Shown one piece after another: positions 750 to 63,107 of a stretch of 64,000 nt of DNA (positions within the stretch are counted from its first letter, which is position 1; each line of letters starts with the position of its first letter). Origin of the DNA: Syntrophaceae bacterium (GTDB lineage Bacteria > Desulfobacterota > Syntrophia > Syntrophales > Smithellaceae); assembly GCA_018056765.1 (NCBI GenBank), contig JAGPFA010000001.1, positions 62,001-126,000 on the forward strand, written 5' to 3'. Below the pieces are notes generated by a model. That model was not told the DNA's origin. It made no database searches and was given only the letters and a program-made list of their open reading frames with translations. The position numbers were made by a program, and so were the translations under genes.

Positions 750-1787
750 TCAGCCCACGTGGCGGTACAAAATTCTGCCTGCGGTTTTTAAAATGGGAAC
801 AGGCAGTTTTGAGATAATATTTTGTAGTTTTCCGGGGATTACTTTATCGCTTCCGCGGAATGAATTTTTACTAAAGTCATACCTGTAGTATTGAATTTTA
901 TATGGTTTTGCTCCCCATCCGTCTTTGAACTGCATAAGCCCTTTGTGATGAGGCTCGGTGCGGCCGAATTGCAATTTTTCGAAACCCTTGTCGCAACAAT
1001 GCTTGATTGCCTCCCACATTACCAGGTTGTTTGCCCGTAGCTGGAGGTGGCGCTTATCTGACGCTCCGTATTTGTAGATTACTTCATTGCCGAAATGCAG
1101 GTACACATTGGCGGCAATAACCTGTTTGCCGATGGAAGCCGTGGCAATGAATCCCATATTTTGCTCGATGACCTTGTCCTGTAAAATTCTGAAAAACCGG
1201 TCCGGCTGTGGCGGCAGGCCATGGTCCCTGCGGGTTAAAACATTGAGGCGGCAAAACTTTTTCATGGCATCCAATGAGGTGGATACGTTGATTTCCACCC
1301 CCTTAGCGGAAGCTTTTTTTAAGTTTCGGCGCGTTGAGTCACGCATCAGTGACAACAGCCTGTCATGTCCCGGCCGCAGGTCGAGCTCATGCCCCCAATA
1401 AACTCCGGAAGAGGGCATTCGCTCCAGATATGTGGCACCTCCCCTAATTTCCAGATACTTCCAGCGGCGCCCGCGGCCCAGCTCAAGTACCTTGTCCAGG
1501 AGCGCTTTAAAGCTCTCTGCATTAGCGGCCAGGGGTTCACAAAAGTCGGTGAAGGGCAGGCAGACGCCTCTTTTGCCGGTCAGCATACTCTTTACTTCCA
1601 TTAGGGGAAGCAGATCCGCAGGGCCGCTGTTGTGGTTTCCACACAGATATAGCGGCTGATAATTATAAGCGGCAGTCAAGACTTCTGCCCATTGTGCCGT
1701 ATGAAAAAAGGAATGGCCTGCTGTTTGCACAAGCAGGTCATTCCAGTTAGTTGTCTCCAAAGGATTGACAACAAGAATGTCAGGCAT
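750..1787 (-). CDS. FemAB-like aminoacyl/acyltransferase (GNAT fold), XrtA-type EPS locus
   Basis: 345 residues resembling the FemAB-related proteins that accompany exosortase/PEP-CTERM polysaccharide loci. FemAB proteins carry two GNAT-like folds and transfer aminoacyl groups to lipid-linked precursors. The role in EPS loci is not established. Visible features are the N-terminal SFFHTAQWAEVL segment and the C-terminal GNAT-like stretch from about 225 (VYLHFGNEVIYKYGAS, then LVMWEAIKHCCDKG and FGRTEPHHKGL). Its ATG overlaps the end of the upstream aminotransferase by eight bases (ATGCCTGA), which points to translational coupling. The protein has no signal peptide. Confidence 0.8.
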   Translation of the reverse strand: MPDILVVNPLETTNWNDLLVQTAGHSFFHTAQWAEVLTAAYNYQPLYLCGNHNSGPADLLPLMEVKSMLTGKRGVCLPFTDFCEPLAANAESFKALLDKVLELGRGRRWKYLEIRGGATYLERMPSSGVYWGHELDLRPGHDRLLSLMRDSTRRNLKKASAKGVEINVSTSLDAMKKFCRLNVLTRRDHGLPPQPDRFFRILQDKVIEQNMGFIATASIGKQVIAANVYLHFGNEVIYKYGASDKRHLQLRANNLVMWEAIKHCCDKGFEKLQFGRTEPHHKGLMQFKDGWGAKPYKIQYYRYDFSKNSFRGSDKVIPGKLQNIISKLPVPILKTAGRILYRHVG

Positions 1788-2886
1788 AGTACTCTTTTAT
1801 CTGGTCAACAACATAGGTAACCTGTTCGTCGGTCAGTTCGGCAAACATCGGCAGCGACACGTATTCAGCGGCGCACTTCTCCGCAATCGGGAAGCTGCCC
1901 GGTCCTTTATTCATGAATGAATATGCTTTTTGCAGATGCAGAGGCACCGGGTAATGGATGCCGCAGGCAATGCCTTTCCCGTTGAGGTAAGCCATGAACT
2001 TATCTCTTTCTTTTACGCGAACGGCGTATATATGATACACGTGTCTGGCGTATTCCATTTCCATGGGGACGATGATTCCCTCAACAGTGGCAAGTCCTTT
2101 TGTGTAAGCGGCGGCATGTTTCCTGCGTGCGTCGTTCCAGTTGTTGAGATATTTTAATTTGACGCTCAGGACTGCGCCCTGAATGCCGTCCAGCCTTGCG
2201 TTCCAGCCAATGATGTCGTGATAGTACTTCCGGGCCTGGCCGTGATCACGGAACATCCGCATTTTTGCGGCAAGTGCGTCGTCATTTGTGACAATGCCAC
2301 CGCCCTCGCCGTAGGCGCCGAGATTTTTTCCCGGATAGAAGCTGAAACAGCCTGCGATGCCGATAGAGCCGGCACGCCTTCCTTTGTATTCTGCACCGTG
2401 CGCCTGGCAGGCATCTTCAATTACATGCAACCCGTGTTTTTGCGCAATTACCATGATCGGATCCATGTCGGCCGGTTGCCCGAAGAGGTGCACCGGGATG
2501 ATGGCTTTTGTTTTATTGGTGATTGCCCTTTCGATTTCAGCGGGATTCATGTTGTGGGTTATTTCTTCAATATCCACAAATACGGGTGTAGCGCCGGCCA
2601 GCGATATGGCTTCGGCGGTGGCGATGAAAGTATTGGGGGTGGTGATGACCTCGTCTCCTGCTCCAATTCCCAGAGCGACCAGTGCCATCCACAAAGCATC
2701 TGTTCCATTACCAACGCCGATGGCCTGCCCGGTGCCGCAGAATTTAGCGAACTCCTCTTCGAAAGCGGCGACAAATGGGCCTCCGGCAAAGGCCGTATTT
2801 TCAATGACTTTGTTGATGGCCGCATGGACTTCGTCCTTGATGGTTCTGTACTGTGCTTTAAGATCTAAAAATGGAATGTTCATCAT
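1780..2886 (-). CDS. wbpE: DegT/DnrJ/EryC1 PLP-dependent sugar aminotransferase (WbpE/WlbC-like)
   Basis: 368 residues with the full DegT fold. Visible are GVGNGTDAL (phosphate-binding region, about 57-65), VIEDACQAHGA (PLP-pyridine Asp158) and FYPGKNLGAYGEGG with the Schiff-base Lys at about 187. With the adjoining dehydrogenase and N-acetyltransferase it completes the WbpB-WbpE-WbpD set. That set converts UDP-GlcNAc-uronate to UDP-2,3-diacetamido-2,3-dideoxy-uronate, with this enzyme adding the 3-amino group using glutamate. The substrate is inferred from the trio, since the fold alone does not fix it. It overlaps the FemAB-like gene, but a 510-bp repeat-filled gap separates it from the wbpD-like gene. 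Confidence 0.85.
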   Translation of the reverse strand: MMNIPFLDLKAQYRTIKDEVHAAINKVIENTAFAGGPFVAAFEEEFAKFCGTGQAIGVGNGTDALWMALVALGIGAGDEVITTPNTFIATAEAISLAGATPVFVDIEEITHNMNPAEIERAITNKTKAIIPVHLFGQPADMDPIMVIAQKHGLHVIEDACQAHGAEYKGRRAGSIGIAGCFSFYPGKNLGAYGEGGGIVTNDDALAAKMRMFRDHGQARKYYHDIIGWNARLDGIQGAVLSVKLKYLNNWNDARRKHAAAYTKGLATVEGIIVPMEMEYARHVYHIYAVRVKERDKFMAYLNGKGIACGIHYPVPLHLQKAYSFMNKGPGSFPIAEKCAAEYVSLPMFAELTDEQVTYVVDQIKEYYA

Positions 2887-2980
2887 TTTTTTAATTAACC
2901 TTTCCTTGAAGTATTTCGTTGTTCATTTCTATGTCAGCCGTGCTCTGTGTTGCTTTAGTTTTTTACATCTCCTGTATGTC

Positions 2981-3062
2981 CATCCCCGGCCTGCTGAAGC
3001 AGGCCACCCCCGCCGGCCCCCTTCGACAGGCTCAGGGCAGGCTTCGACAGGCTCAGGGTGAA
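2981..3062. repeat. Palindromic core plus two 21-bp CTTCGACAGGCTCAGGG units
   Basis: The segment holds the hairpin core GGCCTGCT-GA-AGCAGGCC with ACCCCCGCCGGC, then one 21-bp unit at 3021-3041 and a second variant unit ending in GTGAAC. The core recurs at 3311-3352 and, inverted, near 25155-25190. The 21-bp unit recurs at 24580-24652. Confidence 0.75.
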
Positions 3063-3076
3063 CGGGGGTAGTGGTA

Positions 3077-3373: not shown

Positions 3374-3408
3374 CTCTATCCTTGATCCTTTCGCCTTTAC
3401 CCTTTCAC
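3374..3408 (-). repeat. Heptamer array overlapping the end of the wbpD-like gene
   Basis: Read on the minus strand, five 7-bp units follow the pattern GNNNAAG or close (GTGAAAG, GGTAAAG, GCGAAAG, GATCAAG, GATAGAG). The stop codon at 3397-3399 lies inside the second unit. A related array lies at 24708-24756. Confidence 0.6.
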
Positions 3409-3870
3409 CTGTCTTTTCACCCGGGCCGGGTTGCCGGCCGCGATGGCATTGGCCGGTATGTCTTTGGTAACGACGCTGCCCGCCCCAATAATGGCGTTTT
3501 CGCCGATGGTGACGTTGGCCAGAATGGTTGTACCCGAGCCGATGGAAGCTCCTTTTTTGACGATTGTTGGTTCAACCTTCCAGTCCGCTTCGGTTTGCAA
3601 TTTGCCGTCGGTTGTGGCGCGCGGATAGCTGTCGTTGATAAAGGTGACTCCGTGGCCTACAAAAACTTCATCTTCGATGGTCACGCCTTCGCAGATGAAG
3701 GTATGGCTCTGAATTTTGCAGTTTTTACCTATAAAGGCATTTTTCTGTACCTCGACAAACGCGCCTATTTTGGTGCCGTCACCGATGGTGCATCCGTACA
3801 GGTTGATGAATTTGGACAGTTTTACATCTTTCCCCAATTTTACGTCATCTGCGATGCAAAGGTAGTTCAT
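3397..3870 (-). CDS. wbpD: Hexapeptide N-acetyltransferase (WbpD/WlbB-like)
   Basis: 157 residues starting MNYLCIADDV. This start is chosen because its ATG overlaps the upstream stop codon by four bases (ATGA); in-frame Met codons farther upstream lie inside the neighbouring gene. The protein is almost wholly left-handed beta-helix repeats (LGKDVKLSKFINLYG, IGDGTKIGAFVEVQ, IGKNCKIQSHTFI, IEDEVFVGHGVTFIND, then IGSGTTILANVTIGENAIIGAGSVV) and ends AGNPARVKRQVKG. WbpD-type enzymes acetylate the 3-amino group made by the WbpE partner, using acetyl-CoA. The final codons fall in a 7-bp repeat array, so the C-terminus may have been remodelled. Confidence 0.88.
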   Translation of the reverse strand: MNYLCIADDVKLGKDVKLSKFINLYGCTIGDGTKIGAFVEVQKNAFIGKNCKIQSHTFICEGVTIEDEVFVGHGVTFINDSYPRATTDGKLQTEADWKVEPTIVKKGASIGSGTTILANVTIGENAIIGAGSVVTKDIPANAIAAGNPARVKRQVKG

Positions 3871-4874
3871 ATGTCGATCATCTTTCCCTTGTTGTTGATG
3901 GATTTGCTGGAAGCCTCGAGCATCTTGACATTTTTCAAACCCGCCTTGCCGTCGTTTATGCATTCTCCGCCGTTTTTGACGTAGTCCACAAATTTTTCAG
4001 CCATCAGTCTGAGCGCCTCGGTTGATTCAATTTTAGGAGCCCACATGTCGCCTGAACGGTAGTTGACAAGGAGGTTGTATTTTCCCTCTTTAGTCGTAAT
4101 TTCTACGCCCTTGTCGTAAATTTTTATTTTTTCGTCTGGTTCCAGATCATTCCAGACGAGCATTTTTTTCTCACCGCCGATAAGTGTGGTGCGCACTTTT
4201 ACGGGTGAGAGCCAGTTGACGTTGATGTGGGCGATGATGTTTTCAGGGTAGTAAAAGGTCAGATAGGCAATATCCTCCAGCCCTCGCCCGAAATGCCCGG
4301 CACCGGTGGCCACAACAGCTTCCGGTTTGAGACCGATAACGTAATCCATGATGGCCAGGTCATGGGGCGCCAGATCCCACACTACGTTGACATCGTGCTG
4401 GAAAAGGCCCAGATTGACGCGAATGGAATCAAAATAATACAGGCTTCCCAACACTCCTTCATCGATGAGCTGCCTGATTTTTTTTACGGCACCCGTGTAG
4501 AGAAATGTATGGTCGACCATGATTTTAAGATTTTTCTTTTCCGCCAGGTTGACCAGTTCCTCCGCCTCGGCAACCGTATAGGTGAAGGGTTTTTCCACAA
4601 AAATGCTTTTGCCCGCCTCCAGGGCTTTTTTCCCCAGTTCAAAGTGTGTAAATACCGGGGTGACGATAGCCACCGCGTCCACTTCCGGGTCTTTTATCAG
4701 TTCATCGGGATTTGTTGTCGTTCTGACATGCGGGTATGCTTTTTGTACTTTGTTTTTTAATGTCTCAGAGTTCATGTCGCAGACCATTGTCACTTTGGAA
4801 CCGTTGGCCGTACTGAAGTTGCGAACGATGTTCGGACCCCAATAGCCGTAACCGATTACACCCATACGAATCAT
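3867..4874 (-). CDS. wbpB: Gfo/Idh/MocA-family oxidoreductase (WbpB/WlbA-like, UDP-GlcNAcA 3-dehydrogenase)
   Basis: 335 residues. The N-terminal Rossmann domain has GVIGYGYWGP (about 5-14), the family FVEKPFTYT motif holds Lys95, and DLAPHDLAIMDY contains the catalytic-type His171. WbpB-type enzymes oxidise the 3-hydroxyl of UDP-N-acetylglucosaminuronate, with NAD+ regenerated by 2-oxoglutarate in the well-studied homologue, and hand the 3-keto sugar to the aminotransferase. The stop overlaps the wbpD-like start by four bases. The wbpA-type 6-dehydrogenase needed to make the uronate is not in the window. Confidence 0.85.
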   Translation of the reverse strand: MIRMGVIGYGYWGPNIVRNFSTANGSKVTMVCDMNSETLKNKVQKAYPHVRTTTNPDELIKDPEVDAVAIVTPVFTHFELGKKALEAGKSIFVEKPFTYTVAEAEELVNLAEKKNLKIMVDHTFLYTGAVKKIRQLIDEGVLGSLYYFDSIRVNLGLFQHDVNVVWDLAPHDLAIMDYVIGLKPEAVVATGAGHFGRGLEDIAYLTFYYPENIIAHINVNWLSPVKVRTTLIGGEKKMLVWNDLEPDEKIKIYDKGVEITTKEGKYNLLVNYRSGDMWAPKIESTEALRLMAEKFVDYVKNGGECINDGKAGLKNVKMLEASSKSINNKGKMIDI

Positions 4875-5020: not shown

Positions 5021-6181
5021 TTACACGGCGCCGGAGCCGCCCAAAACGGCTTTGGGTGTCATAAGTAATATCTTAATGTCCAGCCACAGGCTCCATTCCC
5101 GTATATACTTCAGGTCAAGGCGCACCATTTCGTCAAAAGTTGTGCGGCTGCGGCCCACCACCTGCCACAGTCCGGTAATGCCTGGTTTGCAGGAAAAAAG
5201 ACGGCGACGGTGCCACACGTCGTAAAGCTCGCACTCGTAGGGAATAGGAGGCCGGGGACCGACAAGCGACATATCGCCTTTCAAAACGTTGATTAACTGG
5301 GGCAGCTCGTCGAGGCTGGTTTTCCGTATAAATCTGCCGATGGGGGTAATGCGCGGATCATTGGTTAATTTGAAAACACCCGGTTCTACGGCAGAGTTTT
5401 GCTGCTCGTTAATGAATTTCGCGATATAGGCCTTATGTTCTGAAGCATCATTATCGGCTTTCATGGAACGAAATTTCAGGAAGGAAAAAACTTTTCCGTT
5501 ATAGCCCACCCGGTCCTGACGGAAAAAAACCGGCCCGGGCGAGGTTGCCTTGATGACGATGGCCAGTACCAGAAATATCGGTGAAAATAACAAAAGTCCG
5601 GTCAAACTGCCGGCAATATCGATGCATTTTTTTACTGCCAGCGCAAGATGTCGGCCGATGGTTTTTGGGGCCAGGTCAGGGTAGAGGTTGATATTGAATG
5701 TTTCATCGATGTTTTGGGATACTTTTATTTTCGGGAACAGATGGAAAGAAATAGCGATGTTCTTTACGATATCAGGATCCAGCCGGGTGCAGACACGGGT
5801 ATAAATTTTCTGTATGATGGAATCAACAAAGTTATCCGTATCGATGGGTATTTCCGTGAAGATGATGCCGAAAGTACGTTCTGTTTGATACCATCCGCGA
5901 ATGTCCGTTTCACGAAGTGAAGAGGAAAGAGCTGTTTTGACCAGGCCGATTTCGTCACTGAAGGGGTATTTTTCGGCAAGCCTCGAGACGTCGATGAGCA
6001 GGAGCATGAAGGGGGTTTTCGACCGCTCCGTTCTCATTCTTTCAACTCGCAGCATGTGGCGAAAATGTGTTTCGGTGAAAAAAGAGGGATCCTCTCCGAC
6101 TCTGGGCACAGAAACATTGACCAGATTTAAGCGGTTGTTGTCGCCGAAAGCTTCGTGTGTGCCAACTGTTGAGCTGCCCAT
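5021..6181 (-). CDS. Polyprenyl-phosphate sugar transferase with degenerate GGDEF-like N-terminal domain
   Basis: 386 residues in two parts. Residues about 181-386 are a bacterial sugar transferase (phosphoglycosyl transferase) domain: a membrane re-entrant segment near 187-211, SPGPVFFRQDRVG (214-226), FLKFRSM, TSLDELPQLINVLKGDMSLVGPRPP and KPGITGLWQV. This domain starts a repeat unit by moving a sugar phosphate from a UDP-sugar to undecaprenyl phosphate. Residues about 38-150 resemble a worn GGDEF fold (FRHMLRVERMRTERSKTPFMLLLIDVSRL, LRETDIRGWY, FGIIFTEIP) without the GGDEF signature. The protein lacks the usual multi-helix N-terminal membrane bundle of WcaJ types. That the N-terminal part senses a nucleotide is only inference. 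Confidence 0.85.
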   Translation of the reverse strand: MGSSTVGTHEAFGDNNRLNLVNVSVPRVGEDPSFFTETHFRHMLRVERMRTERSKTPFMLLLIDVSRLAEKYPFSDEIGLVKTALSSSLRETDIRGWYQTERTFGIIFTEIPIDTDNFVDSIIQKIYTRVCTRLDPDIVKNIAISFHLFPKIKVSQNIDETFNINLYPDLAPKTIGRHLALAVKKCIDIAGSLTGLLLFSPIFLVLAIVIKATSPGPVFFRQDRVGYNGKVFSFLKFRSMKADNDASEHKAYIAKFINEQQNSAVEPGVFKLTNDPRITPIGRFIRKTSLDELPQLINVLKGDMSLVGPRPPIPYECELYDVWHRRRLFSCKPGITGLWQVVGRSRTTFDEMVRLDLKYIREWSLWLDIKILLMTPKAVLGGSGAV

Positions 6182-6306: not shown

Positions 6307-7200
6307 TCATAATTTGCGAGTTTTTTTTATTGTGCCGAAAAAAGTTTTCAGATCATTTAAAAGTATCCCGAGCTTACTTGGCGGCTGTGGCTCCGGGTTC
6401 CCTCTTGCGGAGCGGTAATCGTAGTACTGATATTTAGCGCCAAAATGTTTTTGAGTCATGTTTTTTGTTTTAAATTCAACGTCATTGAGCACAACACCGA
6501 TGATTTTTTCTTTGTCAATGTGTCGGAGGGCCTGTTGAATGGCTTCACGTGGCGTTTCGCCTGCCCTTACCACCAAAATTATGCCGTCGGCCATGAGATT
6601 GAGCACTGCCGGCTCTGTTGTGGCCAGAATGGGGGAAGAATCCAAAACAATATATCGGTCAGCATAGCGCAATTTGAGTTCTTTTATGAGGCCTTTCATC
6701 TTTTCTGAACCGATGAGTTCGACAGGGTTTTCCTGCACGGGGCCACCGGGAATGACACTAAGCTTGTCCACAGCTGTTTTAACCAATAAATCAGGAACTT
6801 CTGCCTCTCCAAGCAGATAGTTGGAAAGCCCCTTTTCCTGGTGCAGACCAAAGAATCTTGAAATAGAGGGGTTGCGAAGATCGCAGTCCACAAGCAAGGC
6901 GTGACTGTGCAATTCCAGGGCGATGATCACGGCCAGGTTTATGGAAATGAGGCTTTTGCCTTCGCTGGGCATGGCGCTGGTCACCATGATTGTTTTATAA
7001 GCTGAAGGGCTGTTGGGCTTAATAATGTGTGTTCGTAACCTTCTGAATTGTTCGGTAACCAGTGAAGATGGTGCAAAAAAAGAGACGAGCTTGTCGTCAA
7101 GGACAGCATGTTCCGGTATTTCGGTTCCAGGAGATTTTTGAGTATCTCTCCCTGTTTTTTCCCGTTCCAGCTTTTGCAGAGCATCAAACATTCTGCCCAT
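6307..7200 (-). CDS. CpsD/CapB-type tyrosine autokinase of the EPS system
   Basis: 297 residues. The bacterial tyrosine-kinase P-loop is VTSAMPSEGKS (73-83), the A' motif is LLVDCDLRNPS (102-112) and the Walker B is YIVLDSSP. The C-terminus has a small tyrosine cluster (YQYYDYR) rather than a long Tyr-rich tail. These cytoplasmic kinases work with Wzz/GNVR-type co-polymerases to control chain length and export, which matches the chain-length gene two positions upstream. The N-terminal MGRMFDALQKLERE is typical of the exosortase-associated subgroup. The gene lies six bases after the ExeA-like ATPase. Confidence 0.9.
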   Translation of the reverse strand: MGRMFDALQKLEREKTGRDTQKSPGTEIPEHAVLDDKLVSFFAPSSLVTEQFRRLRTHIIKPNSPSAYKTIMVTSAMPSEGKSLISINLAVIIALELHSHALLVDCDLRNPSISRFFGLHQEKGLSNYLLGEAEVPDLLVKTAVDKLSVIPGGPVQENPVELIGSEKMKGLIKELKLRYADRYIVLDSSPILATTEPAVLNLMADGIILVVRAGETPREAIQQALRHIDKEKIIGVVLNDVEFKTKNMTQKHFGAKYQYYDYRSARGNPEPQPPSKLGILLNDLKTFFGTIKKTRKL

Positions 7201-7206
7201 ATCGTA

Positions 7207-8133
7207 TTAGCTCCAAAATTTATCGAGAGTTTGTACTACAAAAGCTGACAAAAGTAAAAGTAATAATACCGCGAAAACTATCAGCGATCGCGTTATTACT
7301 TTTCTTCTTTTTGATGTGCCCGGTGGGGTAATATCCATCTCCTGCGCTGTTTTTTTAATAATATCACTGGTTATTCTCTTTTGTTCTGACGAAAAACCGG
7401 TAAGAAGGGCATTGTCGCACAGAATATTGATCAGCCTGGGTATGCCGCCGGAGTAGCGATAAATTTCTCTGACGGCGTCGTTGGAAAAAACGGTTAAGTT
7501 TCGCGAGCCGGCTCGTTTTAGTCGATATGAGATGTATTGCCTTGTTTCGTCCAGGCTAAGGGGACGCATATGGTAGCGGACGGTAATTCTCTGCTTTAAA
7601 GGCTTGAAGTCCGGCATGTTGAGAATCTGACTGAGCTCCGGCTGCCCCAGTAAAATTACGTGCAGAAGTTTGAATTTGGCTGTCTCCAGATTGGTCATGA
7701 GCCTCACTTCCTGCAGAAGCTCAGGTTCCATACAATGGGCCTCGTCGATAATTAAAAACACCTTTTCATGTTTGGCGAAACATTTTAAAAGAAAGCTGTG
7801 CAAAGCCGCGATGGAGTCACCTCTGGATTTCATACCCGAGGTGTCAATCCCCAGGTCTTTACAAACGAAATGCAAAAAATCATCCCGATCCATCAGGGGA
7901 TTGAAAATATAGCAGGTTCGCACATTTCCGTCGATATTGCTCAGCAGCTTGTGAACCAGTGTTGTTTTTCCTGTGCCGGCTTCGCCGGTGATCACACTAA
8001 AGCCCTTGCCCTCATGAATGGCGTATTGCAGCGAGGCAAGCCCCTCCTGATGAACCTCGCTGAGGTAAACATAGAAGGGATCAGGTGTTATTTCGAAAGG
8101 TCTTGCTTTAAAACCGTAGAATTTCTTATACAT
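7207..8133 (-). CDS. ExeA/MSHA-type AAA ATPase with C-terminal membrane helix (XrtA-associated)
   Basis: 308 residues opening MYKKFYGFKARPFEITPDP, the hallmark of ExeA-like ATPases. Walker A is GEAGTGKTT (50-58), Walker B is KVFLIIDEAH (124-133), and a sensor-like arginine follows in GGIPRLINILCD. A hydrophobic helix near 282-303 anchors the C-terminus, with only a few residues beyond it, so there is no peptidoglycan-binding domain as in GspA-type relatives. In exosortase EPS loci this ATPase sits between the GNVR and kinase genes, exactly as here. Its precise job is unknown. One base separates it from the GNVR gene. Confidence 0.88.
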   Translation of the reverse strand: MYKKFYGFKARPFEITPDPFYVYLSEVHQEGLASLQYAIHEGKGFSVITGEAGTGKTTLVHKLLSNIDGNVRTCYIFNPLMDRDDFLHFVCKDLGIDTSGMKSRGDSIAALHSFLLKCFAKHEKVFLIIDEAHCMEPELLQEVRLMTNLETAKFKLLHVILLGQPELSQILNMPDFKPLKQRITVRYHMRPLSLDETRQYISYRLKRAGSRNLTVFSNDAVREIYRYSGGIPRLINILCDNALLTGFSSEQKRITSDIIKKTAQEMDITPPGTSKRRKVITRSLIVFAVLLLLLLSAFVVQTLDKFWS

Positions 8134-8134
8134 A

Positions 8135-9580
8135 TCAGGACTCTTGTTCCTCGATTTTTGGTATTGTCGCCACCACTTTGAGTCCCAGGGTTATTTCTAC
8201 ATCCGAAGCATCATGGAAGGTGCGGTCAAGCTGTTCCCTTAAAAATGCCGCCGCCAAACCACAGCCCAGACCGGCCAAAATACCCATCAGCAATGTTTTA
8301 CGAACATCGGGCGAAAATGGTTTTTCCGGAACTCTTGCTGGATCAACTACTTTGAATTGTTCCCCTTTTTGCCTTTTTTCCAGATTTTCCGCCTGCTGAG
8401 CTTCCTGACTTTTTTTCAAAAGGGTTTCATAGGAATCTTTGGTGCTCTGGTATTCACGCATCAGGCCGGCCATGTCCTGTTCACGCACGGGTGTCTGTTC
8501 AATACGCGCCAGGTATTTGTTGATTTGTGCGGATAGGGATGATGATTCATCCTGCAGACGTTTGATCTCCATATCGGTCAGTGTCAGTTGATTTTTGATT
8601 TCTCTGTAGTGAGGATCCATTCTGAATGAATCTTTGTTTTTTTCCAGATTGGCGATTTTTCTTTTCACGGCAATAACGTCCGGATGATTTTCTGTAAATT
8701 TGGTGCGCAGGTCTTCCAGTTCCCGGTTGAGCATGTCTTTTTGGGACTCAAACGTTCCGCCACCGATTCCCGGCGCGGCGGCAGGCGGGTGCAAGGTAGA
8801 AGTTCGGCCATCGGAAATTATCGGTGTGGCCGGAGCTTCCATGTCGGTCAGTTGTCTTTGCAGGAAAAGTTTACGATCCTGGGCGGCGCGCAGGCTTTCG
8901 CTGACTCTTTGATTTTGTGTCTGCAACTGCTCGAGTATCCGGATATTGGTGTCCTGCTGTTCGGGAAGCTGCCCCATATACTGTCTTTTATATTTTGTGA
9001 CCGCTTCTTCCATTTTGTCGAGTTTCTCTTTGGCCAGGGCAAGTTCGTCGGCGAGGAACTCCGTTGTTCCGACCGCCTGCTGTTCACGTATTTTCAGGTT
9101 TTCTTCAATGAAAAGAGATGCCAGACGGTTGGCAACGGCAGTGACGACTTCCGGGTCGCTTCCTATGAAACTTACGGTGAAAAATCCCTGCTTTTCGTCT
9201 CTGCGCGACGGCAGTTCAACCTTGATGTTGCGGCGCATCAGATCGACCAGTTCTTCGCGGGAGAGATTCGCGCGCTTTTTTTCATACAAGTTGAATTGTG
9301 TGATGATCTCTTCAAGGCGTGTACGGCTCATGACTTCCTGAGAGATGGACTGAAGTCGTTCTTCCACTTGTGCGGTGACGGTTGCCTGAACAAAAGCTTC
9401 GGGAACTTTTTGCGGTGAGACCAGCACCAGCGTGTCTGCTTTGTATTGCCTGGGTGTGACCTTCAGATATAAAGCGGTGACGGCAAAGACCACAACAAAA
9501 GGTATAACAATATACCAGATTCGTCTCCAGATAATTTCAATATAATCATCAAGCGTATAGCTCTTTGACGGGTTGATCAT
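8135..9580 (-). CDS. Wzz/GNVR polysaccharide chain-length determinant
   Basis: 481 residues. A short cytoplasmic N-terminus (TLDDYIEIIWRR) precedes a first membrane helix at about 21-41. A large periplasmic coiled-coil-rich region follows (about 150-395, including EFLADELALAKEKLDKMEEAVTK-like heptads), and a second helix lies near 428-446 after the Pro-rich RVPEKPFSPD segment. This is the polysaccharide co-polymerase architecture. It sets polymer length and links the kinase to the outer-membrane exporter. Confidence 0.9.
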   Translation of the reverse strand: MINPSKSYTLDDYIEIIWRRIWYIVIPFVVVFAVTALYLKVTPRQYKADTLVLVSPQKVPEAFVQATVTAQVEERLQSISQEVMSRTRLEEIITQFNLYEKKRANLSREELVDLMRRNIKVELPSRRDEKQGFFTVSFIGSDPEVVTAVANRLASLFIEENLKIREQQAVGTTEFLADELALAKEKLDKMEEAVTKYKRQYMGQLPEQQDTNIRILEQLQTQNQRVSESLRAAQDRKLFLQRQLTDMEAPATPIISDGRTSTLHPPAAAPGIGGGTFESQKDMLNRELEDLRTKFTENHPDVIAVKRKIANLEKNKDSFRMDPHYREIKNQLTLTDMEIKRLQDESSSLSAQINKYLARIEQTPVREQDMAGLMREYQSTKDSYETLLKKSQEAQQAENLEKRQKGEQFKVVDPARVPEKPFSPDVRKTLLMGILAGLGCGLAAAFLREQLDRTFHDASDVEITLGLKVVATIPKIEEQES

Positions 9581-11003: not shown

Positions 11004-11636
11004 TTATTTAACGATGATTGTGTCTCCACGTCTGATGATTACGTCCGGGCTGTCGCCGTCAATGATCTTATTATAGTTTGCCCAGGTTCTTTTTTCTTTG
11101 CCGTTTTCATTGGAAATGATGAGGATTTTTCTTTTGTTGGCCCATTCTGTAAAACCGCCGGCCGCGATAATAGCTTTAATCAACGTGGTTTCACTGCGAA
11201 TAAGCTGGATGCCGGGAGTTCTGACTTCTCCGGATATGAATATTTTGTAGCTGTTGGCTTCTCTGACCGTTACAGTGACCGTCGGGTTATCGATATATCC
11301 CTGCAATTTGTTGACGATGACTTCCTTCAATTGGAGCGGGGTGAGTCCGGCAGCCTGAATATCGTTGACCAGGGGCAGTGAAATCATGCCGTCAATTCTG
11401 ACGGGGACGGTTCTGCTGATTTGCTCATCTCTCCAGACGAAGATATCCAGAATATCCTCCGGTCCGATGATGTATTCGCTGTCTGACGCCGTGACGGATT
11501 TTGCCTTTTGCCCTACGTCTGCGGAAGCTTGACCCGGCTCTTTTGTGGAATCTGCGTGAAGCGCACAGGAGGTGGCAACCACCATAAGTATGGCCGCTGT
11601 GATGGTCAAAACAAAAGTCAAAGACATTTTTTTCAT
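11004..11636 (-). CDS. Polysaccharide export lipoprotein (Wza-like, Poly_export plus SLBB)
   Basis: 210 residues. The signal peptide ends in a lipobox-like ATSC (Cys24). Residues about 54-125 are the polysaccharide export domain (YIIGPEDILDIFVWRDEQ, RIDGMISLPLVNDI), followed by one SLBB domain (IFISGEVRTPGIQLI, LIKAIIAAGGFTEWA). It is much shorter than E. coli Wza (about 379 residues) and lacks Wza's extra SLBB domain and outer-membrane helix, so the neighbouring barrel may supply the pore. It is the first gene of the leftward EPS operon. Confidence 0.88.
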   Translation of the reverse strand: MKKMSLTFVLTITAAILMVVATSCALHADSTKEPGQASADVGQKAKSVTASDSEYIIGPEDILDIFVWRDEQISRTVPVRIDGMISLPLVNDIQAAGLTPLQLKEVIVNKLQGYIDNPTVTVTVREANSYKIFISGEVRTPGIQLIRSETTLIKAIIAAGGFTEWANKRKILIISNENGKEKRTWANYNKIIDGDSPDVIIRRGDTIIVK

Positions 11637-11863
11637 AATTTAACTCCTGCCTTTAGAAGATTGAATTAAAGTTGTTATAAGTAATTTCAATAAATTATCC
11701 TTATCAAAATCAATAAAACAAGTCGAGGGTTATTTGAAATATTTAAAATTGACCATGAAGACATTTTCCGCTATTGATACACTTGAAAGCTTCTGTAATA
11801 GAATAGCGGGAATAATTTAGCATAAATAAGGAAGTCAGGAATTTGAAATTAAAGGAGAAAAAG

Positions 11864-14143
11864 ATGTTTAACACAAAAAACCGCGTAGTTGCCATTGTTC
11901 TTGTGTTGATTATTGCCGTTTTATTGCCGGGAATTACCGGATGTTCCAAAGAGGGGAGAGCTCAACGCTCTTTAAAGAAAGGGGAGGCCTATCTGGCGGA
12001 AAATAAAATACGGGAAGCCATCATAGAGTACAGCAATGCGGTTAAACTTGTCCCCGGCCACGCCCTGGCGCATTATAAACTGGGTGAATGCTATATGAGG
12101 GCGGGCGCAGGCAAGGAGGCGCTGGCCTCTTTGGCCAAGGCGGTCGAGCTCGACCCTGATATGACACAGGCGCGCTCATATCTGGGGGGGCTTTATCTTC
12201 TTTCCGGCAACGTGGGAAAGGCCCGCGAGCAGGCAGAGGCGATGCTGGCAAAAGACGAGTCAGGCTCTGACGGGCACCTGCTGCTGAGTAACATTTATTT
12301 AAAGGAAAAAAATATCAATCTGGCCATCGCCGAAGCCGGGAAGGCAGCCGAAGGCGAAAAAAAGATGGAATCCTATCTTCTGCTTGCCAATCTCTACCTG
12401 ATGAGCCGGGACCTGCATCAGGCAGAAGAAGCGCTCCAAAACGCGGTGGGCTTCGATAACAATGAACAAAAGGCGCGTCTGACACTGGCCGATTTTTATT
12501 TTCGCACCGGTAGAAAGGAACTTGCCGAGCAGGAATACCTGCAGGCGGTGCAAAATGCTCCTCAGGACGCAAATGTTTGCTCGAAACTTGGCCATTTCTA
12601 TATCGCAACAGGCAAAATGGAAGAAGCCCAAAAGCAACTGATCAAGGCGGTTGAGCTCTCGCCCAAAAACGGACTGGCGCGTCTGACGCTGGGTGACTTT
12701 TATCTGCTGTGGAACAAGAAAGAGAAAGCTGAAGAGGTTTTCAAAGAGGCGGAAAAAAATGACGGGAAGAATATTACAGTGCTGGCGAAACTGGCGGATT
12801 TCTATCTGGCCGAAAAAAAATATGATGAGGCAGCCAGGCACACGGAAAAGATTTTGAAGATCAATCCCAAAAGCGATCAGGGGCTCTTTATGAAGGGAAG
12901 AATCCATCTGGCGAAAAATGAATTCGACGAGGCCCTGAACCTGTTTCAAGCCTATATAAAAGACAATCCCCAATCCGCTCAAGCCTATTATTATTCTGCT
13001 ATGGCTCATTCAGGCGGACAGAATCTGCAGCAGGCCAAAGCGCAACTGGCAGAGGCGATTAAACTCAATCCGGACTGGGAGCAGCCGAGGGTGGCCATGG
13101 CCGGTATCAATCTTCAGGAAGGCAACGCGCAGGAGGCGATGATGCATCTCCAGCGGGCGCTTGGTGTCAACCCGGCCGGCGTACAGTCAAGACTTCTTTT
13201 GGGCGATGCCTACTTTATGCAAAAAAATCTGGGCGCAGCCGCTGCGGAGTATGAGAACGTACTCACAAGATTCCCGACAAACGTACCGGCCCTCATTCAG
13301 ATGGGCAGAGTTTTGATTATGCAAAAGCAGGAGGACGCGGCGCTTGAAAATCTGGAGAAAGCAATCACTACAGACCCCAAAAGCGATAAAGCCCTGAGGC
13401 TTATTTGCGCCATTTATTTGGGAAGGAAAGACACAGACCAGGCCATTGAACGGGTGAAACAGCAGATTCGGACAGTGCCGGATCATTCTGTTTTTTACAG
13501 TATACTAGGGAGCCTCTATGAGATAAAAAAAGATGTGTCCCAAGCAGAGTCTCATATGAAAAAAGCCATTGAGCTTGACCCGAACAACCCCACTTTGCAA
13601 ATCCAGCTTGGTGATTTTTACATGAGACACCGCCTGACCGCCGAGGCCAAAGACCGCTATAAAGCTACCGCGGAAAAAGAGCCGAAAGCTTTGCAGGCGC
13701 TGATGGGGCTGGGCATCATTTATCAAGGAGAAAACAATTACAGCAAGGCACAGGAATATTATGAAAAAGTTCTGACGATTAACCCGAACTTTGTTCCGGC
13801 AGCCAATAATCTTGCCTATATTTATGCCGAGCAGGGAGGAAATATCGACGTCGCGTTAAATCTGGCGCAAAAAGCAAGGGAAAAGATGCCCCAGGACGCC
13901 AACGTAGCCGACACGCTGGGTTGGATTTATTATAAGAAAAACGTTTACAGCACTGCGATTACTTATTTAAAGGAGGCGGCCGAAAAAATGCCTGAGCAGC
14001 CGGTCGTTCGCTACCATCTGGGGATGGCGTACTATAAAAACGGTAACCGTGATCTGGCCAGACAGGAACTGAACAGGGCCCTGTCGCTCAGCCAGGATTT
14101 TGAAGGAGCGAAGGAAGCGAAAAAGGCGCTGGAGAACCTTTGA
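11864..14143 (+). CDS. prsT: TPR-repeat lipoprotein of exosortase/PEP-CTERM system (PrsT-like)
   Basis: 759 residues from the ATG at 11864, which has AAAGGAG seven bases upstream; a TTG at 11843 is the less likely alternative. A signal peptide ends in LPGITGC, a good lipobox. The rest is roughly twenty tandem tetratricopeptide repeats of about 34 residues (pattern A..Y..LG..Y...G....A...L..A..LDP). Its divergent position next to the SLBB operon fits the PEP-CTERM TPR lipoprotein, thought to scaffold the periplasmic/outer-membrane export machinery. Gene symbol use is by family resemblance. Confidence 0.82.
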   Translation: MFNTKNRVVAIVLVLIIAVLLPGITGCSKEGRAQRSLKKGEAYLAENKIREAIIEYSNAVKLVPGHALAHYKLGECYMRAGAGKEALASLAKAVELDPDMTQARSYLGGLYLLSGNVGKAREQAEAMLAKDESGSDGHLLLSNIYLKEKNINLAIAEAGKAAEGEKKMESYLLLANLYLMSRDLHQAEEALQNAVGFDNNEQKARLTLADFYFRTGRKELAEQEYLQAVQNAPQDANVCSKLGHFYIATGKMEEAQKQLIKAVELSPKNGLARLTLGDFYLLWNKKEKAEEVFKEAEKNDGKNITVLAKLADFYLAEKKYDEAARHTEKILKINPKSDQGLFMKGRIHLAKNEFDEALNLFQAYIKDNPQSAQAYYYSAMAHSGGQNLQQAKAQLAEAIKLNPDWEQPRVAMAGINLQEGNAQEAMMHLQRALGVNPAGVQSRLLLGDAYFMQKNLGAAAAEYENVLTRFPTNVPALIQMGRVLIMQKQEDAALENLEKAITTDPKSDKALRLICAIYLGRKDTDQAIERVKQQIRTVPDHSVFYSILGSLYEIKKDVSQAESHMKKAIELDPNNPTLQIQLGDFYMRHRLTAEAKDRYKATAEKEPKALQALMGLGIIYQGENNYSKAQEYYEKVLTINPNFVPAANNLAYIYAEQGGNIDVALNLAQKAREKMPQDANVADTLGWIYYKKNVYSTAITYLKEAAEKMPEQPVVRYHLGMAYYKNGNRDLARQELNRALSLSQDFEGAKEAKKALENL

Positions 14144-62567: not shown

Positions 62568-63107
62568 TTACCTCCTTTTTTCTCTGAGGATTTCTCTTTC
62601 CGTTTCAAAAACAAAGCGGATGATTTCATCCCTGACAAAATCATCAATATTGATGAACTCCACGGATGTGTCATATTCAGTTTGTGATGTTGCCGTGTCA
62701 ATGACTTCTCCGTATAAAAAAAGAGCAGCAGGCATTTGAATGCCCAGCATTACTTTAATTTCCAGTATATCCCCTGTGGTAAATGATTTTCCCGTGTTGA
62801 AGCTCATTCCTCCGCCGCTGATATTGACTTTGGCCATATTCAGGCAGTGAAAACCGTCGCGCTGCAATGTCAGCAAACGGATAATTTCCGTCAATTTAGC
62901 GTTGATGCTTTGCAGCCATTGAGCGATAAGCTGATCGTCGGGGTTGGGTAAGCTCTTGAATTCCGCCAGCACTGATTGTCCGGCGACACGCGCACGCATC
63001 GTTTCTTCGAATCCCCGGGGAACAAGCCTGTATTCCAGAGGGATGCAGGCTTCAACGCGTGAATACTCTCTTTTGTTTTCCCTGTTTTCAGATATCATGA
63101 TTGTCAT
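62568..63107 (-). CDS. PilZ-domain protein upstream of motA-motB
   Basis: 179 residues; a second Met at 63098 is an alternative start. The c-di-GMP signature is split as in some PilZ proteins: RxxxR in KREYSRVEA (Arg13, Arg17) near the N-terminus and NISGGGMSF near residue 96, separated by a helical insertion (about 40-85). The end is Arg/Glu-rich. Placement as first gene of a stator operon suggests a YcgR-like brake that reads c-di-GMP at the motor (inference). Confidence 0.85.
   Translation of the reverse strand: MTIMISENRENKREYSRVEACIPLEYRLVPRGFEETMRARVAGQSVLAEFKSLPNPDDQLIAQWLQSINAKLTEIIRLLTLQRDGFHCLNMAKVNISGGGMSFNTGKSFTTGDILEIKVMLGIQMPAALFLYGEVIDTATSQTEYDTSVEFINIDDFVRDEIIRFVFETEREILREKRR

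Follow-up and report, generated by a model that had tools for sequence, protein, structure and literature searches.

The gene analyzed here lies at positions 5021..6181 (minus strand) of a 64,000-nucleotide stretch from a Syntrophaceae bacterium (assembly GCA_018056765.1, contig JAGPFA010000001.1, positions 62,001 to 126,000), which as a whole is referred to as the window. It encodes a protein of 386 amino acids in which a degenerate GGDEF domain is fused to a monotopic phosphoglycosyl transferase (PGT), that is, an initiating sugar transferase, as judged from the open reading frame (ORF) and its translation, from a match to PF02397, and from an AlphaFold2 model. An initial annotation, made from the letters of the window, had described a sugar transferase joined to a GGDEF-like domain at this place, and both halves of that description hold, with PF02397 at residues 184-380 and a GGDEF fold at residues 33-152. 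The catalytic domain (residues 184-380; 5042..5632, minus strand) matches PF02397 with an E value of 1.5e-69, and its nearest solved relatives in the Protein Data Bank (PDB) are PglC and WbaP. Within it, the DE pair D291-E292 (5306..5311, minus strand), the expected catalytic dyad of a monotopic PGT, shows no variation across 56 aligned sequences. The PF02397 core and the DE pair thus place the protein among the monotopic PGTs. The initial annotation had also remarked on the lack of the usual membrane bundle. When the window protein was scanned with Pfam, PF13727 gave no match and the GGDEF fold was found to occupy that place, so that the protein is not a large PGT of the WbaP type. The lack of this four-helix bundle is unusual solely in comparison with the large PGTs, since in small monotopic PGTs the catalytic domain makes up the whole protein (PMC12802240).

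The degenerate GGDEF domain (residues 33-152; 5726..6085, minus strand) was delimited from models, from structure searches, and from the match of a sequence profile to GGDEF domains in the PDB. Its predicted secondary structure comprises a strand at residues 58-64, helices at 66-71 and 77-86, strands at 94-99 and 103-108, a helix at 115-133, and a strand at 143-149, with a mean pLDDT of 83.3 for the model of the 386-residue protein and of 86.5 for a model of the N-terminal domain. Taken as a single sequence, residues 39-130 match the Pfam GGDEF model weakly (E value of 0.27 for the full-length protein and 0.014 for the isolated domain), and at 15.6 bits the domain falls under the PF00990 gathering score of 23.8 and hence outside Pfam membership. 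A relative from genome G043 reached 23.2 bits alone and 25.9 bits together with its in-frame neighbors, and 18 of 54 family members matched Pfam GGDEF at an E value of ≤1 (best, 1.9e-7). A profile built from these 54 sequences retrieved GGDEF domains as its first matches among PDB sequences, namely, DosC (4zve; E value, 4.1e-4), GcbC (5euh; 1.1e-3), and SiaD (7e6g; 1.5e-3), beneath which GGDEF chains were interspersed with unrelated chains. With the model of the N-terminal domain as the query, all 26 Foldseek matches at an E value of ≤0.001 and all 50 matches listed by VIA-align (Z scores of 10.7 to 12.7) were GGDEF chains, while the entire model retrieved mostly PGT and GGDEF chains, with PglC and WbaP on top and no further fold. 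The GGDEF-like fold proposed for the N terminus in the initial annotation is therefore borne out by comparison of the predicted fold with known structures, in which GGDEF alone appeared among the top matches and an unrelated fold did not. An accidental likeness to GGDEF is ruled out by the profile, fold, and family evidence, and by its predicted fold the N-terminal domain belongs to the GGDEF superfamily.

Loss of the cyclase site and retention of the I-site motif

To follow individual residues, we used a set of 66 sequences composed of the window protein, the 55 ORFs found complete in a scan of 63 loci (see below), and 10 sequences picked from a search of the phylum. The site of the GG(D/E)EF signature is occupied in the window protein by Q99-T-E-R-T103 (5873..5887, minus strand), and none of the 66 sequences carries the signature at its aligned place; the single string match, in L089, falls elsewhere in the domain. 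This confirms the missing catalytic signature of the initial annotation. In the alignment of the family, the FKxxNDxxGH segment, the site of the second metal ligand and of the Asn that binds substrate, has six residues fewer than in true GGDEF domains, and the column of the second metal-binding Asp holds chiefly E, a gap, G, S, K, or R. Neither this Asp nor the Asn, the Lys, or GG(D/E)E is conserved in the family, although most GGDEF rows of genome G043 (28 rows) and of the own genome (12 rows) keep them. The window domain thus lacks the features of an active diguanylate cyclase, i.e., the signature and the pair of metal-binding Asp residues, and judged from these residues it is catalytically dead as a cyclase.

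A different picture was obtained for the inhibitory site (I-site), at which diguanylate cyclases bind cyclic di-GMP (c-di-GMP). The motif R90-E-T-D93 (5903..5914, minus strand), placed between the second helix and the following strand, stands at the position of this site and aligns to the RxxD of DosC, GcbC, and SiaD. Both R90 and D93 are invariant in the family alignment (66 of 66), and position 125 (K125 in the window protein; 5807..5809, minus strand), the third basic residue of the proposed I-site, is Lys or Arg in 65 of 66 sequences (K in 37, R in 28, S in 1). The initial annotation had missed both the RxxD and this third basic residue. The spacing of 32 between D93 and K125 equals that between D370 and R402 in Pseudomonas aeruginosa PelD, a tentative equivalence that is drawn from spacing and helix position and not from an alignment with PelD. 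This retention stands out from a domain with a mean column identity of 36% (54 sequences), in which nine positions are invariant in all 66 sequences: F40, E47, R50, R53, R90, D93, G96, W97, and G105. Of 73 family rows aligned to a GGDEF profile, 53 extend over the I-site columns; among these, the Arg is present in 51 and the Asp in 52, while the cyclase columns have drifted. All 66 sequences, the window protein included, therefore combine a kept RxxD with a lost active site, the motif pattern of degenerate GGDEF receptors of the PelD/BcsE type.

Since ordinary GGDEF domains commonly carry RxxD too, its presence alone proves nothing, and we rejected it as a proof of binding. In genome G043, the motif occurs in 20 of 26 GGDEF rows (28 readable rows less the fusion and one duplicate), corresponding to 15 of the 17 rows that have GG(D/E)E and 5 of the 9 that are degenerate. 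The motif is an inherited one, and the argument for a function lies instead in its persistence while the cyclase site decayed. As the family sequences are mutually related, all counts are given without a P value.

Distribution of the fusion and its gene neighborhood

The compact fusion is a conserved and widespread family. A search of the phylum found matches to the domain in 32 of 395 genomes (E value of ≤0.001), some of which are ordinary GGDEF proteins, and a search of the class with the family profile found 27 of 155 genomes at an E value of ≤1e-10, with 5 of the 20 genomes of the genus among the matches listed. A scan of named genomes yielded 63 loci with 55 complete fusion ORFs; of the other eight, L061, L068, L070, and L093 are cut by contig ends, L064 has a broken frame, L072 and the first ORF of L092 are stand-alone, and L095 is a different protein. 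The scanned loci include Deltaproteobacteria (Geobacter, Syntrophobacteraceae, and Syntrophorhabdaceae among them), Acidobacteriota, Nitrospirota, Fibrobacterota, and Raymondbacteria, and the fusion was found chiefly in Deltaproteobacteria and Acidobacteriota. An oddity peculiar to the genome of the window is ruled out by these homologs.

The same domain is also joined to three large PGTs (L013, L014, and L016), with PF13727 present in both of those that were scanned for it (L014 and L016). In a tree of the PGT cores, the compact fusions cohere, while these three are set apart by a branch 3.72 changes per column long, with an SH-aLRT support of 100; phylum labels in the tree are the submitters' titles, and the label “Myxococcota” on records of “Deltaproteobacteria bacterium” was not relied on. 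Given this long separate branch, the domain has been combined with distantly related PGT cores.

Besides the fusions, we observed stand-alone copies of the domain. One, of 151 amino acids, is found unlinked on another contig of the own genome (L002:1432-1887; C55:64865-65254), and others recur in the class (L188, L190, L192-L194, L196-L203, and L205), often in a genome that also has the fused copy. RxxD is kept in every stand-alone copy read except L002, and in genome G452 (L199) the stand-alone ORF lies immediately upstream of the fused one. Other arrangements occur as well. On an Acidobacteria contig (L092), a stand-alone GGDEF-like ORF (335-922) is followed by an ORF (936-3071) that holds a Gfo/Idh dehydrogenase, a GGDEF-like domain, and a PGT in one chain; L027 (525 amino acids) and L032 (520 amino acids) have a GGDEF-like C terminus after a further N-terminal region, with GGDEF lost and RxxD kept; and a BTAD-type transcriptional regulator of Petrocella (L095:5137-6372) resembles the GGDEF-like domain in its C-terminal part (ERRRSERSG...RKGD), with no Pfam GGDEF match at an E value of ≤0.01.

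In the window, the fusion gene is part of a cluster in the order export protein, outer-membrane protein, chain-length determinant, ATPase, tyrosine autokinase, fusion, Gfo/Idh dehydrogenase, hexapeptide acyltransferase, DegT aminotransferase, and FemAB-like protein, with all coordinates given here on the minus strand. NCBIfam models identify an XrtA/PEP-CTERM exopolysaccharide export protein (SLBB; 11004..11636), an XrtA system polysaccharide chain length determinant (8135..9580), and an XrtA/PEP-CTERM system-associated ATPase (7207..8133); the chain length determinant scores over its cutoff, and most scores in the cluster are under the curated ones. The next genes are an XrtA-associated tyrosine autokinase (6307..7200), of which a homolog lies near 34 of the 55 complete fusions, and, on the other side of the fusion gene, a Gfo/Idh/MocA dehydrogenase (3867..4874; near 45 of 55), a hexapeptide acyltransferase (3397..3963; near 40 of 55), and a DegT/DnrJ/EryC1 aminotransferase (1780..2886; near 32 of 55), all of these counts coming from a set with many short contigs. 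By its predicted gene content, the locus is an exopolysaccharide cluster of the XrtA/PEP-CTERM type. The recurrence of dehydrogenase, acyltransferase, and aminotransferase homologs near the fusions suggests a UDP-2,3-diacetamido sugar as the PGT substrate. Divergent from the cluster, a PrsT-like tetratricopeptide repeat (TPR) protein that scores over its NCBIfam cutoff is encoded at 11843-14143 (plus strand).

A candidate c-di-GMP receptor within a priming enzyme

We lean toward reading the domain as a c-di-GMP receptor, similar to those of PelD and BcsE, that is built into the priming PGT of an XrtA/PEP-CTERM-type exopolysaccharide. The broader proposal, that the family forms a widespread class of priming PGTs in several phyla, each with its own PelD-like receptor made from a dead GGDEF domain that gates the first, undecaprenyl phosphate-consuming step of Wzx/Wzy-like synthesis, appears to us evenly balanced. 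We infer, as the initial annotation had suggested, that the domain acts as an allosteric sensor, and this view gains strength from the conserved I-site triad and from the occurrence of the domain in fusions with distantly related PGT cores. According to this proposal, c-di-GMP made by the ordinary diguanylate cyclases of the cell would bind R90, D93, and K125. Such enzymes are likely at hand, with 12 GGDEF and 3 PilZ matches in the own genome and GGDEF matches at an E value of ≤1e-10 in this genome, in all 19 other fusion genomes tested, and in G043. Binding would alter the packing of the domain or its pairing with a second copy, and the altered packing or pairing would in turn make the fused PGT core transfer more sugar 1-phosphate to undecaprenyl phosphate. 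Coupling of the domain to the PGT may thus proceed through dimerization, and the activating direction of the effect is proposed by analogy with PelD.

Each part of this arrangement is of a known kind, as both degenerate GGDEF receptors and PGTs bearing additional domains have been described. PelD shares with the window protein a dead cyclase site, an RxxD with a distant basic residue (spacings of 3 and 32 in P. aeruginosa), and location in a polysaccharide cluster (PMC7112168, PMC8461298). Its c-di-GMP ligands are R367, D370, and R402 in P. aeruginosa and R363, D366, and R395 in Bacillus cereus, where changes to Ala abolish binding and biofilm (PMC7112168, PMC8461298). However, PelD serves a synthase-type system as a membrane protein of its own and has a GAF domain, while the window domain lies in one chain with the starter enzyme of a pathway linked to undecaprenyl; moreover, Lys frequently takes the third position in the window family, and the likeness is one of motif and spacing. 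In BcsE, a degenerate REC-GGDEF tandem in cellulose secretion, the GGDEF domain likewise carries an I-site RxxD, is incompetent for catalysis, and lacks the P-loop region (PMC7439463), but BcsE is an accessory protein that recruits BcsRQ and has no fused transferase. In the Escherichia coli glycosyltransferase-MshEN fusion NfrB, a c-di-GMP receptor domain is fused to an exopolysaccharide glycosyltransferase (PMC8669469); MshEN, however, is a different receptor domain and binds its ligand in a different mode, and the enzyme is a processive glycosyltransferase of family 2 rather than a lipid-priming PGT. In EpsZ-EpsW of Myxococcus xanthus, a signaling protein regulates the initiating PGT at the level of the protein (PMC12802240); unlike here, the signaling protein is a phosphorylated response regulator in a separate chain and its target a large PGT, and GGDEF does not occur in the text of that paper. 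Finally, the Bi-PGT class of bifunctional or fused monotopic PGTs also carries an extra domain on the PGT core (PMC10942596). We found no published GGDEF-PGT fusion in the open-licence PMC literature, a scope that leaves aside the survey of the PGT superfamily (PNAS 2021) and does not establish absence from print; the joining of the two kinds is apparently undescribed.

Several observations weigh against a c-di-GMP receptor. Binding and regulation are a step beyond what was directly established, namely, the fold, the loss of the cyclase site, the conservation of the I-site triad and of PGT residues, the GGDEF proteins of the hosts, and the cluster context. Co-occurrence with diguanylate cyclases is a weak check, because 57 of 59 genomes of the phylum carry GGDEF proteins anyway. 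RxxD occurs in 39 of 40 GGDEF loci with a GG(D/E)EF-type motif (42 loci tried, with a bias to top scores), and its retention in the family is thus possibly structural. It is lost in the short-type fusion L028, although kept in five other short types (L018-L020, L023, and L024), and in the stand-alone copy L002 TDSD replaces it, so that the I-site Arg is gone while DxxGWY is kept. The third basic residue is Lys rather than Arg in 37 of 66 sequences. PelD and BcsE chains are absent among the 50 matches listed in each fold search with the N-terminal domain, which does not in itself speak against a kinship. G96 and W97, for which we know of no role in the I-site, are as invariant as R90 and D93, and the Gly-Trp that follows RxxD may belong to an interface.

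This last observation leads to a possible, though unlikely, alternative, in which the domain binds no nucleotide and solely serves dimerization or docking, standing in for the front end (bundle plus domain of unknown function [DUF]) that large PGTs possess, with R90, D93, G96, and W97 kept for packing or for a partner. Apart from the invariant Gly-Trp, such a module would be in keeping with the dimerization of large PGTs via their soluble domain (PMC10942596), with the stand-alone copies as heterodimer partners, one of them just upstream of the fused gene in G452, and with L002, which retains DxxGWY without the Arg. A scaffold would, however, not require an exact RxxD plus a third basic residue in 65 to 66 of 66 sequences at 36% column identity, and in one genome merely 5 of 9 degenerate GGDEF domains have RxxD. 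We consider it improbable that the domain senses another nucleotide, such as UMP, a UDP-sugar, GTP, or cyclic GMP-AMP (cGAMP): uridine nucleotides elicit a response from the DUF of WbaP, an enzyme inhibited by UMP (PMC10942596), and a Geobacter GGDEF enzyme makes cGAMP (PMC6456294), but the residues of the GTP site are lost here, and GacA, a cGAMP synthase, reportedly has an I-site specific for c-di-GMP (PMC6456294). That the domain is a functionless vestige carried along by an old gene fusion would agree with its largely variable sequence (mean column identity of 36%), yet nine residues are invariant in 66 sequences from several phyla and the PGT cores to which the domain is joined are distantly related to one another, making this hardly credible.

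If the domain is indeed a c-di-GMP receptor, control by c-di-GMP would be exerted at the first committed step, rather than at a synthase or a promoter. The control of synthase-dependent pathways by c-di-GMP is well described, whereas the posttranslational control of Wzx/Wzy pathways is incompletely understood (PMC12802240, 2025). The family would then reveal how the use or saving of undecaprenyl phosphate for a biofilm polymer depends on the second messenger, and proteins that databases call merely “sugar transferase” would be flagged as likely c-di-GMP effectors. The window holds another candidate c-di-GMP receptor, a PilZ domain match at 62604-62828 (minus strand; E value, 1.2e-6).
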